DNA from: a virus
DNA length: 25,136 nucleotides
Strand: one strand, 5' to 3'
Virus record (IMG/VR): IMGVR_UViG_3300003873_000125
Span: 1-25,136 of that record
Within the stretch, counting starts at the first letter, position 1. Each line of letters begins with the position of its first letter. Positions 3,645 through 21,995 of this stretch are shown piece by piece. The notes beneath the pieces were generated by a model. The model was not told where the DNA came from. It ran no database searches and saw nothing but the letters and a program-made list of their open reading frames with translations. A program made the translations under genes and the position numbers.

Positions 3645-3820
3645 AACTGTGCCTTTCGTTTCTCTAGGAAGAAGTTATCAACTGCTATTGCAGCTGCATA
3701 AGCATCAGAATCAAGTCGCTTGTTCTGTTGCTGTATCTCTTGTACTGATAATCCTACTACTGTGTAGTAGAGATTAGCACGTATGGCTTTTACAAGTTGC
3801 TGAAATTCTATAGAGTCCAT
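3641..3820 (-). CDS. Hypothetical small protein
   Basis: 59 residues from the ATG at 3820 (MDSIEFQQLVKAI), chosen because AAAGGAC lies 7-8 bases upstream; an in-frame ATG at 3844 would add eight residues but has no ribosome site and overlaps the previous gene. Predicted mostly helical with a charged C-terminus (EKRKAQL). No family recognised. The stop overlaps the next ATG as ATGA. Confidence 0.65.
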   Translation of the reverse strand: MDSIEFQQLVKAIRANLYYTVVGLSVQEIQQQNKRLDSDAYAAAIAVDNFFLEKRKAQL

Positions 3821-3831
3821 AGTGTAGTCCT

Positions 3832-4389
3832 TTAAGGTAGCCATAGGCCAGTAGGTGTATTAGTAAGGTTAGCAAACCATTTTATAGCACGGAAACGCCA
3901 GTTTAGTATGAAGCCTTCACGTAGAAGAGCTTTTTCGAATTTATTGATGCGATAGTTTTTAATAGCAAGATCAATTGAACTAAATGAATTTATCATATAC
4001 TTAACAGCGTTACGTATTTTATCTACATCTGATGGGTGCTCCAATACTAGTAGATCTAAACTACCCCTATCACTTAAGGCTTTAACTAGGAAATTATTAC
4101 CGGTTTTAGGTGACACTTTGAAATAGTTACCAATTGGCAACCTTTTATGACTGGTTGTATCCATTTGTTCATAAGTAGCTAAGGAGATAGCAAAATCGTA
4201 ATCAGAGTTATCAGTATGGACACCTAGTGCACGAGAGCCAAACTCCACACCACCAGTGAAGCATAGGGCATCGATTGAGATGGGTGCTGATTGGGTTGAT
4301 GCACTATTGTAGCCAGGGGATGAACGTACAACACTTGGTGTTGGTACGGGGATGGGTGTTACACCTGCCCAAGGGTTATTGAATGCCAT
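3832..4389 (-). CDS. MNT-like nucleotidyltransferase domain protein
   Basis: 185 residues. After a proline- and serine-rich N-terminus (1-38) comes a polymerase-beta-type nucleotidyltransferase signature: FTGGVEFGSRALG at 44-56 followed by NSDYDFAI at 61-68 (D63, D65 as metal ligands) and a third acidic strand GSLDLLVLEHP at 109-119. The C-terminal third is helical and basic. Unrelated in detail to the two other transferases in this block. The substrate is unknown. The start codon has no convincing Shine-Dalgarno sequence; it overlaps the stop of the 29-codon thyX-like remnant, so translation is probably coupled to that frame, as it would have been to the original thyX. Confidence 0.8.
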   Translation of the reverse strand: MAFNNPWAGVTPIPVPTPSVVRSSPGYNSASTQSAPISIDALCFTGGVEFGSRALGVHTDNSDYDFAISLATYEQMDTTSHKRLPIGNYFKVSPKTGNNFLVKALSDRGSLDLLVLEHPSDVDKIRNAVKYMINSFSSIDLAIKNYRINKFEKALLREGFILNWRFRAIKWFANLTNTPTGLWLP

Positions 4390-4465
4390 TTGGTTTCACA
4401 ATCAAGTCTAAATACTTACTAGGAGTAACTACCTTTATGGCTTGTGCTAGGTGTTGTATTTTCAT
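4376..4465 (-). pseudogene. Diverged thyX 3' end remnant (29-codon frame)
   Basis: A 29-codon frame starts MKIQHLAQAIKVVTPSKY and ends just inside the next gene. Without gaps it matches the C-terminus of the ThyX encoded upstream: IQ-LA----TP-KYLDLI---N-I, 14 identical of 26 positions. It is a second copy of the thyX 3' end, separated from thyX by the homing endonuclease gene. It has its own ATG with AAAGGA six bases upstream, lying inside the endonuclease's 3' end (which it overlaps by 47 bases), and its stop overlaps the start of the nucleotidyltransferase gene. It cannot be an enzyme alone. It is probably the original gene end left behind when the endonuclease arrived, possibly kept to couple translation of the next gene. 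Confidence 0.78.
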
Positions 4466-5162
4466 TCTGTTTCCTTTGTAATTGCCAGCCTTTAGCCTTA
4501 CCTCTTATAACAGGTCTTTTATAGACTGCTGAGTCTTTCAATGTACCATAAGGCAAGTCTAAGCTTTTTAAATGTTGTTGGAGGTCTTTCACCTCTACTA
4601 CTATCCCATCAGGGTTTGTTAATAACCATGTAGCTGAGTTACTATTCAGAGCACCACACATTCTGGCACTTGCAGCTGCTTTTAGCTCTGCAGCTTTTTC
4701 TTTCGTGAAACGTTCTGTGTATGTTGAGGTGTGATACTTTGAAGTTTTCATTTTAGTAATAATAGCCTCTGCTTTTTCAGTTCCAAAGTACTCTGCATAG
4801 GATTTACCCTTTTTAACGGAGGGCCTTCCAGTACTAGCTTTACCTATTTTATCTCTTGTTTCCTGTGTGAATATTGTGCCAGGGCAGTTGCCATCTACAC
4901 CATTTTCATTAATAAGATTTGCCCATTTAGTTGAGTGTACTATGTCAAATAATACAGAAAAATTTAAAGCATGAGTTCTTAGTAGAGAACTTACTTCTAG
5001 GTACTCCCCAACCACTATAGTAGATACATCATTACCATGTTTGGCAATGTGCTTCTTCCAATATATTCCTGAGCCTTTATAGTAATAAGGGTCTTTTGTT
5101 GTTTTACCAAAGTACCTTAACCCTGTTACATTATGTGTCTTTACATATAGTGATATCATCAT
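4419..5162 (-). CDS. GIY-YIG homing endonuclease
   Basis: 247 residues. The N-terminus has a GIY-YIG nuclease core of the free-standing phage type: SLYVKTH at 4-10, LRYFGKT at 15-21 and YKGSGIYWKKH at 28-38. A NUMOD3-like DNA-binding motif follows (FTQETRDKIGKASTGRP, 98-114), and the C-terminus has the W...PDG...GW pattern (W179, PDG 184-186, GW 225-226) typical of endonuclease DNA-recognition regions. Such enzymes cut alleles lacking the insertion and spread by repair. It starts 46 bases after the thyX stop behind AAAAGGATA, with two consecutive ATGs. Its 3' end overlaps a relic of a second thyX end, which identifies thyX as the likely target. Confidence 0.9.
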   Translation of the reverse strand: MMISLYVKTHNVTGLRYFGKTTKDPYYYKGSGIYWKKHIAKHGNDVSTIVVGEYLEVSSLLRTHALNFSVLFDIVHSTKWANLINENGVDGNCPGTIFTQETRDKIGKASTGRPSVKKGKSYAEYFGTEKAEAIITKMKTSKYHTSTYTERFTKEKAAELKAAASARMCGALNSNSATWLLTNPDGIVVEVKDLQQHLKSLDLPYGTLKDSAVYKRPVIRGKAKGWQLQRKQNENTTPSTSHKGSYS

Positions 5163-5208
5163 TATCCTTTTAATAATGACAGTATAACTTAAATACAGTT
5201 AACAAATA

Positions 5209-6108
5209 CTATGTACCTAGTATACTGGTGATTTTATTTTCTCTCATTATTAGATCTAAATATTTACGTGGGGTAGCTTTAATCATCCCCTCTGCTAACC
5301 ATTGTATTTGAAAATAAGCACTGCCTGAAGCCCTTAGTTCTAAGTAGTTCTTCAGACTTCTAAGGTTAAAAGTAACAACAAGATCTGTCTTAAAATTGTC
5401 ATTTACGAGATGCTTAAAGGCATCCCCAACATTTCGCTTAGACTTACCAGCTTCTAATGTGTTGAATAGGGTTTGAGAGTCTTTAATATTTGTTACATAG
5501 TCAAGTGATGACTTGGCAATAGCTAGTTTAACAAACTCATCATAGCCCAGTGCTACACATTGGAGGCTTAGTTTACGGAAGATATCAGTAGCTTGTAAGT
5601 TATTGTAGTCATTGCCAGTAGTTACAAATAGGTCTAGCTCACGAATGGTTTTTAGGAACCATGGTGAGGGTACACTATTGGTTATATTTTCAGCAAGTTC
5701 AGCTACGAAGGCATTTAGAACATTTGACATTGTATAGCGAGTACTACGTACAGATATAGCTTGGAGGCGATGACGTGCATGCTCTTGGAGTACACCACGG
5801 CTAGTACCCTTGATAAGGTACGTAAGGTTAGCGTGTTCTAGGATACTATGGTGAAAGTGAGTCCATGCTAGTTTATCTAGGAGGTCTGAGTGTTCAATAT
5901 TTGCTAGTTGGTTATAAAATCTTGCATCAAAGTCTTTTTGTGAAGTTATAGTAGATATATTACTATTTATAGCCTTTATAAAGGAGTTTTCACTAGCATC
6001 AAAGCTATCATAGCAAGTACGTGCAGCATATTCTGCTGTCCCAATTCCAGTTTCTTGTAGTAATAATACCTTAGGTAGTGAGTAGTTAATTCCATGAATA
6101 GTTTTCAT
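5209..6108 (-). CDS. thyX: Flavin-dependent thymidylate synthase ThyX
   Basis: 299 residues. ThyX makes dTMP from dUMP using FAD, NADPH and methylenetetrahydrofolate. The family signature RHR-x7-S is present at residues 112-122 (RHRLQAISVRS), preceded by the conserved HSILEH (87-92) and the strand NLTYLIKGTSRGVLQEH (94-110). It is longer than the usual 210-250 residues, with extra sequence in the middle (about 135-205). It starts at an ATG after AAAGGAC. The C-terminal part (IQWLAEG...KYLDLI) exists in a second, diverged copy beyond the downstream homing endonuclease, so this 3' end was probably brought in by the endonuclease. The protein appears intact. Confidence 0.93.
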   Translation of the reverse strand: MKTIHGINYSLPKVLLLQETGIGTAEYAARTCYDSFDASENSFIKAINSNISTITSQKDFDARFYNQLANIEHSDLLDKLAWTHFHHSILEHANLTYLIKGTSRGVLQEHARHRLQAISVRSTRYTMSNVLNAFVAELAENITNSVPSPWFLKTIRELDLFVTTGNDYNNLQATDIFRKLSLQCVALGYDEFVKLAIAKSSLDYVTNIKDSQTLFNTLEAGKSKRNVGDAFKHLVNDNFKTDLVVTFNLRSLKNYLELRASGSAYFQIQWLAEGMIKATPRKYLDLIMRENKITSILGT

Positions 6109-6159
6109 TAAAGTCCTTTAGTAGTCTCAACAGAACCACCTACCAGTGGCTCTATGAGG

Positions 6160-6969
6160 TTACTTAGTTTCAGCGTCGAAGCTAAGTTTTGGGTAGATCT
6201 CATTAGCGAATACTTCTTTGTATTCGTTGAGTTCGTTGAATGCTTTCTCTTTTTGCAGGTACTCAATGATTGAGCCACTAGCATCGTTCAGGTCAGAGAG
6301 GAAGCGTTGATTACGTGTGTTAGTAGACTCCATTATCACGGGAGCAACTTCTTTGTAGAAGGCTTGCCAGTCTTCTAGGAGGCTATATGCTTGTAACATC
6401 TTTTCTAAGAACTCTGATTTACCCTCTGAGGATAAGCGAGATGCTTGGTAGATGTCATCATCTGATAGCTGGTGCTCTTCAAGGAGCCACTCATGGAGTG
6501 CTTTCTTTTTTAGAGCTTCTACAGTTATAGCTGATGCTGACATTTTTTTAACAGCTGTACCATTATCCTCTGCAGCTCTGCGAAGGTTGTCAGCTGTTGG
6601 CTTGCCATATTTTGCTACACATATATCTAGAAGTGCTAGACCATCTTCTATTGAGTCTGGTAAGTATTCAGTAGCTGATAGAGATAGTGCTACATAGTAT
6701 TTTTCTTTAACTGCCTCTAGTACAGGGCGTTTTTGTAAGTAGCTGATGTAGGTTTCAGCTGTTTCGACAGTGTAGTTTAGCTCAGCTATTGATTGCTCAT
6801 AGCCAGATGTAGACAGGTTACTGCGGAGCATGTAGAAGACCTCTCCCTTACCATAGTTAAGCAGCTCTGTGCTGAACATGTCTACACGTTCTAGTTGTTC
6901 TTTTGCCCATTTAGTGTCTATGATGTTGTCTTCTGGGAGGATGACACCAGTTTGTGATTCATTATTCAT
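6160..6969 (-). CDS. Hypothetical acidic helical protein
   Basis: 269 residues, not recognised. No signal peptide or membrane segment; the sequence is acidic and predicted almost wholly helical. The ATG overlaps the stop of the upstream gene as ATGA (four bases). It stops about 50 bases before thyX. No catalytic motif is visible. It may be a structural or regulatory protein of the replication block, but that is only from position. Confidence 0.75.
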   Translation of the reverse strand: MNNESQTGVILPEDNIIDTKWAKEQLERVDMFSTELLNYGKGEVFYMLRSNLSTSGYEQSIAELNYTVETAETYISYLQKRPVLEAVKEKYYVALSLSATEYLPDSIEDGLALLDICVAKYGKPTADNLRRAAEDNGTAVKKMSASAITVEALKKKALHEWLLEEHQLSDDDIYQASRLSSEGKSEFLEKMLQAYSLLEDWQAFYKEVAPVIMESTNTRNQRFLSDLNDASGSIIEYLQKEKAFNELNEYKEVFANEIYPKLSFDAETK

Positions 6970-7430
6970 TTTAATACCTTTTTTAGATTTTTTATTGATG
7001 GTGTGTTGACTTTACGAGTTGGTAACACTGTTACTAATGTGTTGTTAGCAACTACACCCACTACACCTTTTTTTAGGACGTACTCACCATCTTGTAGCTT
7101 GTCAGTTGTAGCTAGTTGGTTTAGTAAACATTTGTGTAGCATTTTGGATATATCTTCATCAGTGCCTTTACCGTTATGGCGTTGGCGATATCTGTGAATA
7201 GCATGTGCAGTAATTGATAGTTTGTCAACAGTTGTTGCTAATTTTGTTTTCTTGTTGGCAATGACATCTTGGAGTTTTTGGATTTGAACTCTAGATGTTT
7301 CTGCTTCTTCAAGAAGTATAGCAATTAACTCATTAGCTATTGAAAGCTTTTGAGTATCCATTGGGCGGGAAGGTAGTAGATTTAGTAACCTTTTAAATAA
7401 CTTAGTTACCAAACCATATCCCGATGCCAT
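6966..7430 (-). CDS. Hypothetical protein with coiled coil and small C-terminal beta domain
   Basis: 154 residues. Residues 28-68 look like a coiled coil (IANELIAILLEEAETSRVQ...). The C-terminal half has a helix with HAIHRYRQRH (76-85) and then two strands ending in VANNTLVTVLPTRK (127-140). This order (His-Arg-rich helix, then a strand ending in a 'VVTVLP'-like segment) recalls small RelE/DUF4258-like domains found in phages, but the match is weak and I do not assign a toxin or nuclease function. Its 5' end overlaps a small membrane protein gene by 29 bases. Confidence 0.65.
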   Translation of the reverse strand: MASGYGLVTKLFKRLLNLLPSRPMDTQKLSIANELIAILLEEAETSRVQIQKLQDVIANKKTKLATTVDKLSITAHAIHRYRQRHNGKGTDEDISKMLHKCLLNQLATTDKLQDGEYVLKKGVVGVVANNTLVTVLPTRKVNTPSIKNLKKVLK

Positions 7431-15555: not shown

Positions 15556-16305
15556 CTAGCATAAAGCATAAGAGCTTGTAGCTAGTCCGTCTAAGAAGTC
15601 TTTGTTGTCAATACCAAAGTCTCTCTCGCAGAATTCTTCTAGGTAGTGACCTTCGGAGATTACACGTAGTGATTCGATGAATTGTTTACGAACTGCACCC
15701 ATATTGTTAGGGTGAGCTTGGAAGTCGTCGTGGATGTGAGTGAAGTCGAAGTTGTGGGCATCGGCTTGGGCTCTTACGCAGTAGCCATCTAAGCTGTGAA
15801 TGTAATTAGCCGGTAATGATGTACCTCGTTTGGAAGGCTGATTCTTCTTATGACGATATGGTAGACTTAGCCCTTCTATGTCTAGGGTGCCGTCGATAGT
15901 CTCCATTACTTTAACATGGGCTACGTGACCATCTGGTGTAGTCCACGAATGAGCTAGTGCCTCGTTGTCCCAACGGTCGTTGAGGACTTCCATTACATCC
16001 ATAGCACCTGGGAATAGCTCTTGTAGAGTTTCGTAGAAGGCATGAAGTTCTTCTGTGTCTTCTCCAAAGGCTTGGATTGGTTGTTGTTTACTGTTATAAA
16101 ATGTTGTCATAACAGGCTTCTTACAGAATGCTCTAATCTCACTGAAGCTCATACCATCAAATACTGGAGTATGAGGTAGCTTCTCTACCATGCGTTGAGC
16201 TACAAGAGAGTAAGGGTCTGCACGGACTACCTTTTCAGTGTAGTTGGCTGGATTGCTTTTAAGGCTACGGATTTCTGCTAGTATTTGTGATTTAGTTCTC
16301 TTCAT
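15556..16305 (-). CDS. T7/N4-type RNA polymerase, C-terminal catalytic piece (motifs B and C)
   Basis: 249 residues. Motif B is CKKPVMTTFYNS at 61-72 (K62 aligns with T7 Lys631, Y70 with Tyr639; N71 replaces the usual Gly). WTTPDGH at 121-127 matches the T7 WVTPDGF segment. NYIHSLDG at 167-174 leads to motif C IHDDF (H192, D193, the second catalytic Asp, T7 Asp812). ADPYSLVAQRMVEKL at 29-43 matches the T7 'QDIYGIVAKKVNEIL' helix. Residues 1-22 (MKRTKSQILAEIRSLKSN) are an extra helix at the split point. The ATG lies one base after the previous stop, with AAAGGA six bases upstream in the end of that gene, so it is translated separately. It must pair with the preceding piece to be active. Confidence 0.9.
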   Translation of the reverse strand: MKRTKSQILAEIRSLKSNPANYTEKVVRADPYSLVAQRMVEKLPHTPVFDGMSFSEIRAFCKKPVMTTFYNSKQQPIQAFGEDTEELHAFYETLQELFPGAMDVMEVLNDRWDNEALAHSWTTPDGHVAHVKVMETIDGTLDIEGLSLPYRHKKNQPSKRGTSLPANYIHSLDGYCVRAQADAHNFDFTHIHDDFQAHPNNMGAVRKQFIESLRVISEGHYLEEFCERDFGIDNKDFLDGLATSSYALC

Positions 16306-16306
16306 A

Positions 16307-17167
16307 TTAGTCCTTTAGTGAAGCAAGTTCTGCTTCTAGTTGTGATAACCTCTCGGCAACTTCTTCTGTGTATTGGCGTTCTACTTTAGCGTGGACATTA
16401 CAGTTTCTAGCTGTTATGCAGCAACCTGACAGTGCTGACATTATCTGGAGACCTGAGGCTGTTGAGTCTAGTGACATATTGTGACCTATTGGTTCACCAA
16501 GGATTACTCCGTGGTAGTAAGAAAACATAGCTTTGATGAATAGTAGTGGAGAGTCAGCTTCTTTGGATTGAGCTATGATAGCTTCTTCTATTGAGGCGAA
16601 GTCTCTCTCGTACTTGGTGTCATTGATTAGCTTGTAGAAGGTATTGCTGATGATAGCATTTGCTCTAGCTATTCTTTGTAGCCAAGTTAACTTGTCATAG
16701 CCCATAGTGTTGGCAATGTCTATCTTTAGGTAGTAGATACCTTCTTTAGTAAGTAACTCTTTGTTGCTAAAGCGTAGCATAGCTTTGCGATACTCGTTGC
16801 CTTGGATGTTTGTGTGGTAGCCTTGAGAGTAACTTCTACCACGCTTGTCGTATTTCCAACCGAAGTAGAACTGGTTACCATTTTCTAGTAAGTAATCTAC
16901 TACATCGTTAGTCTCTCTGTCTCTTAGTGCAAAGGACTTCTTACGCTCTTTCTGTTCAATAGCTGTTGGAGCTTCTGGACTCTTCCAGTCTGGCTCTTTT
17001 AGTTTATCACTTAATAGGTGCAGTATGTCTTCGTTGATTTCCCAAGGTACAGATTGTAGTTTGTTGATAGCAGATTTGTTTACTCGTTGTCCAACATTAT
17101 TACCACGGCCTAGTATGATGTTGTCACGGTCGTGCGTTAGTAGATGTGATTTTACTCTTGATTTCAT
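16307..17167 (-). CDS. T7/N4-type RNA polymerase, middle piece (DxxGR and motif A)
   Basis: 286 residues. AINKLQSVPWEINEDIL at 33-49 matches the T7 AINIAQNTAWKINKKVL helix. YDKRGRSYSQG at 106-116 is the DxxGR motif (D107, R111), followed by QGNEYRKAML (122-131). Motif A is SLDSTASGLQIMSAL at 232-246, with D234 as the first catalytic Asp (T7 Asp537). After C-N-V the T7 likeness stops and a charged helix VERQYTEEVAERLSQLEAEL (262-281) forms the C-terminus, likely a dimerisation coiled coil. Motifs B and C are absent; they are in the next gene. GGAGGATAACT precedes the ATG. Confidence 0.9.
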   Translation of the reverse strand: MKSRVKSHLLTHDRDNIILGRGNNVGQRVNKSAINKLQSVPWEINEDILHLLSDKLKEPDWKSPEAPTAIEQKERKKSFALRDRETNDVVDYLLENGNQFYFGWKYDKRGRSYSQGYHTNIQGNEYRKAMLRFSNKELLTKEGIYYLKIDIANTMGYDKLTWLQRIARANAIISNTFYKLINDTKYERDFASIEEAIIAQSKEADSPLLFIKAMFSYYHGVILGEPIGHNMSLDSTASGLQIMSALSGCCITARNCNVHAKVERQYTEEVAERLSQLEAELASLKD

Positions 17168-20754: not shown

Positions 20755-21015
20755 TTATCCTTTAAGTTTTATTGCATTGTCTTCTAAGGTAGAGACTGGA
20801 TGAGATGTGTATTGCCAACTATTTGCTTTATACATGTTAACATCAAAGCTATATTCTTCCTCTATACGTTTTGCTGTTTCTAGGAAGTTACCTATAAAGA
20901 TATCTTTCTGACCATTCATACAAAGTGTAGTTGTAGTACCCAGTTGAGGGCATAGATATTGAGAAGTGGTAGCTATAGTACTGTTGGATATAGCTTCTAT
21001 TACAAATAGTTTCAT
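20755..21015 (-). CDS. Tandem paralogue family, member 5
   Basis: 86 residues. Shares with four upstream neighbours the start (F/Y)VI(E/Q)A, a middle F-(I/R)-GNFLET-A-RIEEE segment (here IFIGNFLETAKRIEEEY, about 45-61), and W-Q-Y near the end. No known family. AAAGGATACCAA precedes the ATG, which overlaps the upstream stop. The most diverged member. Confidence 0.78.
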   Translation of the reverse strand: MKLFVIEAISNSTIATTSQYLCPQLGTTTTLCMNGQKDIFIGNFLETAKRIEEEYSFDVNMYKANSWQYTSHPVSTLEDNAIKLKG

Positions 21016-21281
21016 TTGGTATCCTTTATGAGTAGTGGTGCACTAGCTGGTATAGCAGTATATTGCCATTGTGTGGTATAAGAGACTGGATTTTCTCTGT
21101 CATACTCTAGTTCTTGTGCTATTCTAGTAGCTGCCTCAAAGATGTTACCTTGAAAGAGTTTATCACTAGTGTTAAATGTTGTTAGGCTTTTAGCATACCC
21201 TTTTTTGGTAGCTAGATAGATAGGTGTGTTGTCAGGGGATTCTAGTAAGTCTTCAGCTTCAATTACGAATTGTTGGGTCAT
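21012..21281 (-). CDS. Tandem paralogue family, member 4
   Basis: 89 residues from the ATG at 21281, where AAAGGACCAACA stands upstream and the start overlaps the previous stop as ATGA; a longer frame upstream lies inside the neighbour. MTQQFVIEAEDLLESP start, IYLATKKG strand, FQGNIFEAATRIAQEL core and QWQYTAIP near the end. Very like member 3. Confidence 0.82.
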   Translation of the reverse strand: MTQQFVIEAEDLLESPDNTPIYLATKKGYAKSLTTFNTSDKLFQGNIFEAATRIAQELEYDRENPVSYTTQWQYTAIPASAPLLIKDTK

Positions 21282-21541
21282 TGTTGGTCCTTTATGGGTA
21301 GTGGTGAGAAGGCTGGGACAGTAATATACTGCCATTGCTCATCAGAGGCATACACTTTGTCATGCTCTAGTTCTTGCTCTATTCTAACAGCTGTTTCAAA
21401 GAGGTTACCTCTAAAGAGGTTGGCATTACGGGTAAAAGCTGTTAGATCACTAGCATCTCCTTGATTATTATCTAGATAGATAGGTTGAGTGTCAGGTGAT
21501 GTTAGTAAGTCTTTAGCTTCAATTAGGTACAATTGGGTCAT
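21278..21541 (-). CDS. Tandem paralogue family, member 3
   Basis: 87 residues, MTQLYLIEAKDLLTSPDTQP, IYLDNNQ, FRGNLFETAVRIEQELEH, then QWQYITVPAF. Nearest to member 4, which suggests a recent duplication. AAAGGACTTACA precedes the ATG. No named family. Confidence 0.82.
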   Translation of the reverse strand: MTQLYLIEAKDLLTSPDTQPIYLDNNQGDASDLTAFTRNANLFRGNLFETAVRIEQELEHDKVYASDEQWQYITVPAFSPLPIKDQQ

Positions 21542-21753
21542 TGTAAGTCCTTTACTATTTGGTAATGCCAGTTACTACCAAGTTTAGGGTTAGAGGCTAG
21601 CTCTTGGTCTAGGCGGTGTTTAGTAGAGAATAAATTACCTCTAAACCTATCTTTTTTGGTACAAGCTACCTTACTAACCTCGTATGCTAAATATATGGGA
21701 CAATCGGGAAGTAAGTTGTTTGTAGCTTGTATTATGTATTGCTGGGGTTTCAT
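21538..21753 (-). CDS. Tandem paralogue family, member 2
   Basis: 71 residues, the shortest. MKPQQYIIQATNN, PIYLAYE, RFRGNLFSTKHRLDQELA, then WHYQIVKDLQ. The FRGNLF-RL-QEL core is retained while the loop before it is shorter. Overlaps member 1 by four bases (ATGA-type) and follows AGGACTTACA. Confidence 0.8.
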   Translation of the reverse strand: MKPQQYIIQATNNLLPDCPIYLAYEVSKVACTKKDRFRGNLFSTKHRLDQELASNPKLGSNWHYQIVKDLQ

Positions 21754-21995
21754 TGTAAGTCCTCTATTACTTCAATGTATGGTACTGATTCATAGTTCCA
21801 TGCAGAAGCACTTATCCTACGGTTGGCTATATCAAATAACCTCTCTTCTTTTATACGGGTAGCTACTTCTAGAAAGTTACCTATGTATATGTTTTCATCT
21901 GGTAGCCTACGGATAATTGAACCTACAGCTTTATCAAGGTAGGCTATGTCATTGGTTTTCTCAGAAGTGGCCTTTATTACGAATTGTGGGCTCAT
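21750..21995 (-). CDS. Tandem paralogue family, member 1
   Basis: 81 residues: MSPQFVIKATSEKT, AYLDKAVG, IYIGNFLEVATRIKEER, WNYESVPYIEVIEDLQ. First gene of the five-member run on the minus strand. AAAGGACATACC precedes the ATG. TTATTGAAGT, a sequence also found upstream of two other gene groups, lies about 47 bases upstream. Roughly 150 bases further upstream contain no gene. Confidence 0.8.
   Translation of the reverse strand: MSPQFVIKATSEKTNDIAYLDKAVGSIIRRLPDENIYIGNFLEVATRIKEERLFDIANRRISASAWNYESVPYIEVIEDLQ

Follow-up and report, generated by a model that had tools for sequence, protein, structure and literature searches.

A phage homing endonuclease gene that probably entered thyX together with a replacement 3' end

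In a 25 kb virus record (the window, 25,136 nucleotides, analysed at its full length) a thyX gene is followed by a nuclease gene and then by a second frame that reads like another thyX 3' end. This raises the question of which of the two ends belongs to the gene and how the other one arrived. The initial annotation had suggested that the endonuclease invaded thyX with a donor's gene end and left the old end downstream. Its coordinates all proved to be right, and the features concerned are as follows.

3832..4389, minus strand: next gene, nucleotidyltransferase-like (weak Polbeta/NTP_transf_2 matches, below cut-off)
4376..4465, minus strand: putative displaced native thyX 3' end (remnant), a 29-codon open frame with its own ATG (native-end profile; tree of ends)
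4472..4477, minus strand: AAAGGA, resembling a ribosome-binding site, 6 bases ahead of the remnant ATG at 4465 (sequence)
4419..5162, minus strand: predicted GIY-YIG-fold homing endonuclease gene (HEG), 247 aa (HEG of locus L003, PHROG 314, structure model)
5163..5208, minus strand: spacer between thyX and the HEG, with AAAAGGA as ribosome-binding-like site (sequence)
5209..5313, minus strand: putative foreign 3' end inserted into thyX, beginning near codon F266 (identity to L003, R281)
5209..6108, minus strand: thyX, FAD-dependent thymidylate synthase, 299 aa, apparent hybrid (PF02511, E 4.6e-28)

The thyX product carries both features that define a ThyX, the Thy1 domain and the RHRx7S motif (RHRLQAISVRS, residues 112-122), and the solved structures nearest to it are those of the ThyX entries 3ah5 and 3n3y. 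Its C-terminus reads IQWLAEGMIKATPRKYLDLIMRENKITSILGT followed by the stop, with RENKITSILGT as C-terminal extension. A profile of 28 native thyX ends, from which the window was left out, matched this end at 5313..5242 (E 6e-12) and the remnant at 4459..4394 (E 5.2e-12), which bears out the claim of a complete thyX with a second thyX-like frame behind the HEG; a search of the whole window with the same profile found no third end. The remnant frame reads (M)KIQHLAQAIKVVTPSKYLDLIVKPNGIQ and a stop (4465..4376). A recount agreed with the 14 of 26 residues originally reported as identical without gaps, a match with a chance of about 3e-6 over the whole window by a simple binomial. In DNA the two copies agree at 64% over 69 bases, so their earlier description as well diverged holds. 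The second frame had also been said to end inside the next gene. The ATG of the nucleotidyltransferase gene (4389) lies within the remnant and the remnant TAA (4378-4376) lies past it, so the two overlap as claimed. On its other side the remnant is overlapped by 47 bases of the HEG, in a different frame, which correspond to about the 16 last residues of the nuclease. The remnant region of L003 is laid out similarly (AAGGA, then ATG) and that of L002 is not. RNA folding of the remnant and the spacer revealed nothing unusual in structure.

The nuclease between the two ends has no significant Pfam match, the GIY-YIG profile included, and its match to PHROG 314 (homing endonuclease) is weak (E 1.6e-4). 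A structure model built from 47 relatives, which replaced a model from two sequences that was too poor, reached a mean pLDDT of 83, with values above 95 in the N-terminal part. It matches the catalytic domain of I-TevI (1mk0; TM 0.68 by target, probability 1.00, with a Foldseek E of only 0.039) and also chain 1u3e of I-HmuI. With regard to the catalytic Arg, Glu, and Asn of motifs B, D, and E, residues Y6, Y17, G19, N82, and E86 are invariant in the 47 relatives, as conserved positions rather than a residue-by-residue mapping on I-TevI. NUMOD3 motifs occur in 24 of the relatives. By structure prediction, the protein is a GIY-YIG-fold homing endonuclease, putatively an active one. The predicted catalytic fold and NUMOD-like DNA-binding part resemble the modular nucleases I-TevI and I-HmuI, although the window nuclease is not intron-encoded, has little sequence similarity to them, and is missed by the Pfam GIY-YIG model. 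A promoter-like match (5247-5219, 9/12, by consensus only) overlaps the thyX end.

GIY-YIG and HNH nucleases are often found in phage group I introns, for example in the thymidylate synthase gene td of T4 (PMC2988022). The remnant could thus be imagined as the true 3' exon of a group I intron or similar element, with a spliced mRNA and the upstream end as a read-through alternative. The upstream end, however, is a full homologous C-terminus with its own stop, which splicing would need to excise, and positions 3800-7000 hold no credible Rfam match; no ribozyme core or RNA element was found around the HEG. An intron is therefore extremely unlikely.

The thyX genes of phages and metagenome-assembled genomes were collected by scanning IMG/VR and GTDB genomes. 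The resulting set of 35 comprises the window, 17 further phage genes, and 17 genes from metagenome-assembled genomes, nearly all of the latter from Sulfurimonas or other Campylobacterota. A single C-terminus with no HEG behind it was found in 32 of them. The remaining three, namely the window and the phage loci L003 and L002, have an HEG, and all three have two ends, as against none of the 32 HEG-free loci. L003 carries an orthologous GIY-YIG nuclease and a remnant at 1855-1917. L002 carries an HNH nuclease (PF13392, E 4e-13) unrelated to the GIY-YIG HEG, and its remnant lies at 6613-6684. The upstream end of all three has R281, a donor-type residue absent from the 32 HEG-free genes; when the association was tested the counts were 3/3 and 0/28 (Fisher p 2e-4), and four HEG-free genes added later also lack R281. 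A second candidate, I276, was dropped as a residue specific to HEG loci since HEG-free L161 has it, and this leaves R281 and the C-terminal extension as the only specific features. The sample is small, with three occupied loci of which two are in phages with a common gene order. On account of this order, the window and L003 may descend from one insertion, in which case there would be two independent cases rather than three. A degenerate-DNA scan of IMG/VR for the R281-type end found no further R-type ends. Neither a donor-type end nor the HEG was detected in 397 Campylobacterota genomes, a search in which no positive control gave a signal, and no HEG-free junction of thyX with the nucleotidyltransferase gene was found.

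Comparison of the window with L003 separates the end of thyX from its body. Over 24 end codons the two agree at 92% in protein and 83% in DNA, against 59% and 60% in the body; among 30 genes ranked by identity to the window, L003 is 9th for the body and 1st for the end. The excess of end over body identity amounts to 33 points, which is 6.5 sd over the mean for native genes (7, sd 4). Rare residues divide in the same way: in the body the window has nine in common with L007, seven with L001, and three with L003, and in the last 64 columns four are common to the window and L003. The nearest relatives are therefore L007 and L001 for the body and L003 for the end, and judged by sequence the window thyX joins a resident body to a 3' end of foreign type, which makes it a hybrid. 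The upstream limit of the inserted end is uncertain, as the rare residue A260 is also common to the window and L003. Alternatively, thyX and HEG could have entered an ancestor of the window and L003 once, with only vertical inheritance thereafter, the similarity of the ends reflecting C-terminal constraint and no end being imported. The common downstream gene order would fit this, as would HEGs that are 66% identical where the backbone exonuclease gene is 52% identical. Against this, native genes show no such end-over-body excess, the body of the window lies nearer L007 and L001 than L003 in its rare residues, the same layout recurs in L002 from another phage group, and the stranded second end would be left unexplained. 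Descent without an imported end is thus very unlikely.

The ends were then placed in a tree, which comprises 38 of them with the three remnants counted in and is weak in detail because it has 23 columns. All three remnants group with the native ends of L001, L004, L013, and L147 (97/94), and the window remnant groups with L001 and L013 (81/85). The end of HEG-free L161 is joined by the three upstream ends (93/98), and L161 is for this reason the best guess for their source lineage; a clade of the three without L161 has no support. Accordingly, the initial proposal that the two ends differ in descent stood as regards the groupings, the remnant falling with native ends and the upstream end with L003, L002, and L161. 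Tests of constrained trees of the ends, over the 23 columns, were not significant (p-AU 0.10-0.21). The body tree is poorly resolved, and a clade of the three HEG-bearing bodies is neither supported nor rejected (p-AU 0.17).

These trees also bear on a local origin, in which the 3' end of thyX doubled in its own lineage before the HEG inserted between the two copies and these diverged. Such a duplication would account for homologous copies that directly flank the HEG, and the tests do not reject trees constrained to place each end next to the remnant of its own locus (p-AU 0.10-0.19). Yet the two copies within a locus are only 55-64% identical in DNA whereas the upstream ends of different loci are 68-83% identical, the same split of end types recurs with the unrelated nuclease of L002, and two ends never occur in HEG-free relatives. 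Taken together, this makes a local duplication very unlikely. Across all three loci the remnant starts within about two codons (F266 to I268), though the GIY-YIG and HNH nucleases are unrelated. Both nucleases may target this stretch, which is conserved, or an existing cassette may have exchanged one nuclease for the other.

An occupied and an uninterrupted allele can be compared directly in L002 and L001. L001 lacks an HEG, and its thyX lies between the same genes as that of L002, at 67% identity for the downstream neighbour and 42% for the upstream one. The thyX of L001 ends GIRHLAEAMKQVTPSKYLDLIIKGTK, and its stop codon overlaps the start of the next gene. Behind the HNH gene of L002 comes QIRWLAQAIKEATPSKYLNLIVKGTHNE and a stop, a frame that runs into the same next gene as in L001. 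The L001 end resembles the L002 remnant as far as the next start codon, and on this alignment L001 is the uninterrupted allele of L002. In both, the AAAGGA ahead of the next start sits within the native end, and the stranded end may have been kept because of this. The initial annotation had expected HEG-free relatives to show an undivided gene: all 32 have one end only, and L001 provides a clean uninterrupted counterpart. No HEG-free relative has both ends, and in no case was the upstream end placed with the rest of thyX beside a remnant without thyX relatives, so its main idea of invasion with a donor's end is supported by the relatives and by the ends tree. In the L002 spacer between thyX and the HNH gene (L002:5878-5908), a perfect 11-bp inverted repeat (GTTAATTCTAG / CTAGAATTAAC) surrounds the thyX stop; this repeat is absent from the GIY-YIG loci.

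The reading we favour, with a probability of roughly 0.87, is that a free-standing GIY-YIG HEG entered thyX at its 3' end and carried with it a substitute for about the last 30 codons, forming a nuclease-plus-rescue cassette in which cleavage and resistance are presumed. The HEG would cut an HEG-free thyX around codons 266-268 or slightly beyond them, where the sequence is conserved, and the break would be repaired from a co-infecting HEG-bearing phage. The thyX body would provide the left repair arm and the native end the right one (in the donor, its own remnant), so that the stretch inserted would consist of the divergent end and the HEG. The divergent end would keep ThyX whole and, being altered in the presumed target, would probably escape recutting. 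The remnant could be refreshed from each new recipient, which would explain why that of the window is like L001, a relative of its body, and not like the L003 remnant. It would persist because it holds the ribosome-binding region and the start of the next gene, and it could serve again as a right homology arm. That the HNH gene of L002 sits within about two codons of the GIY-YIG breakpoint, with the same end type, is counted in favour of this explanation.

Mobile endonuclease ORFs that replace gene ends are known from atp6 of Allomyces macrogynus and from atp6, atp9, cox2, and nad3 of Glomus sp. (PMC3630166). As in these mitochondria, a foreign C-terminus is in frame with the gene, an endonuclease ORF lies behind or with it, and the native C-terminus is displaced downstream; the native end groups with relatives and the inserted end elsewhere (PMC3630166). 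In the window, as in the Allomyces atp6 type, the foreign end is in frame with thyX directly before the HEG and the remnant is directly behind it. The fungal cases concern respiratory genes with, for example, a LAGLIDADG nuclease, whereas here the nucleases are of the GIY-YIG and HNH families and the gene, from a phage, serves nucleotide metabolism; in addition, two unrelated nucleases share one site and the type of end inserted there. The free-standing Seg and Mob nucleases of T4, known for intronless homing, likewise lie beside conserved genes without an intron and should spread through cutting and repair in which the flanks are co-converted, but their insertion sites are between genes or within a gene that they split, and they cleave at a distance of at least hundreds of bases (PMC2988022). 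A term search of this T4 review (PMC2988022) found no duplicated target end. No phage example of an end-replacing HEG was found by term searches in PMC2988022 and PMC10448857 or by searches of open-access papers. In the synthetic, Cas9-based home-and-rescue drive HomeR of Drosophila, the target is likewise an essential gene at its 3' coding end, and the drive carries a re-coded end, 22-27 residues long, for the part downstream of the cut (PMC7968924); the thyX arrangement differs in being natural, with drive only presumed. Bringing the missing part along may be how an intron-less selfish nuclease can settle in coding sequence that the phage probably needs, and phages would thereby join fungal mitochondria, the setting from which the mechanism has otherwise been described. 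Each invasion would leave a readable fossil in the stranded end and create hybrid genes, and the uninterrupted and occupied alleles are defined substrates for testing the imported end as a resistant antidote.

A relative of the window HEG lies antisense at the Rz/Rz1 genes in L166:2501-4400, from a phage group that includes L092, L088, and L099-L103. It is flanked by an intact Rz with a truncated Rz1 on one side and, on the other, by a shrunken Rz vestige carrying the start of an intact Rz1; in HEG-free L174:2501-3200, whose Rz is 84% identical, Rz and Rz1 form a single overlapping pair of the ordinary kind. This looks like a second gene at which an HEG arrived with an extra copy of what it targets. 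A test for flanking duplication at 55 HEG loci put L092/L088, L003, and L002 (as L123) clearly above the control maximum and L071 slightly above it, with a long gapped match. Natural home-and-rescue elements might form a general class in phages, in which nucleases of unrelated families are accompanied by a cut-resistant substitute for the end, or for all, of a target gene (two nuclease families with one end type at thyX, a spare gene with an HEG relative at Rz), a generalization that is offered tentatively and at slightly less than even odds.

Several minor observations concern the surroundings of the locus. A 102 kb sister phage of the window (G013, the contig of L147, with L152 as G013:1-9000; exonuclease gene 65% identical) has the same order around 6160-6969 and the exonuclease genes as the window, with a 161-aa gene in place of thyX, HEG, and nucleotidyltransferase gene; its thyX lies elsewhere on the contig and has a native end. 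Within the window, five adjacent small genes of 71-107 aa (20755-21995, minus strand) resemble tandem paralogues (FVIEA...IYL...LFxGNLFExAxRIxQEL...W.Y). Nucleotidyltransferases are clustered at 661-2254 and 3832-4389 (minus strand), with an RlaP-type RNA repair polymerase (PF10127), a poly-A polymerase head domain (PF01743), and the gene behind the remnant. A T7-like RNA polymerase at 15556-17167 (minus strand) is apparently split into 17167..16307 (PF00940) and 16305..15556 (HDD-type end), resembling the two-subunit RNA polymerase of N4-like phages.
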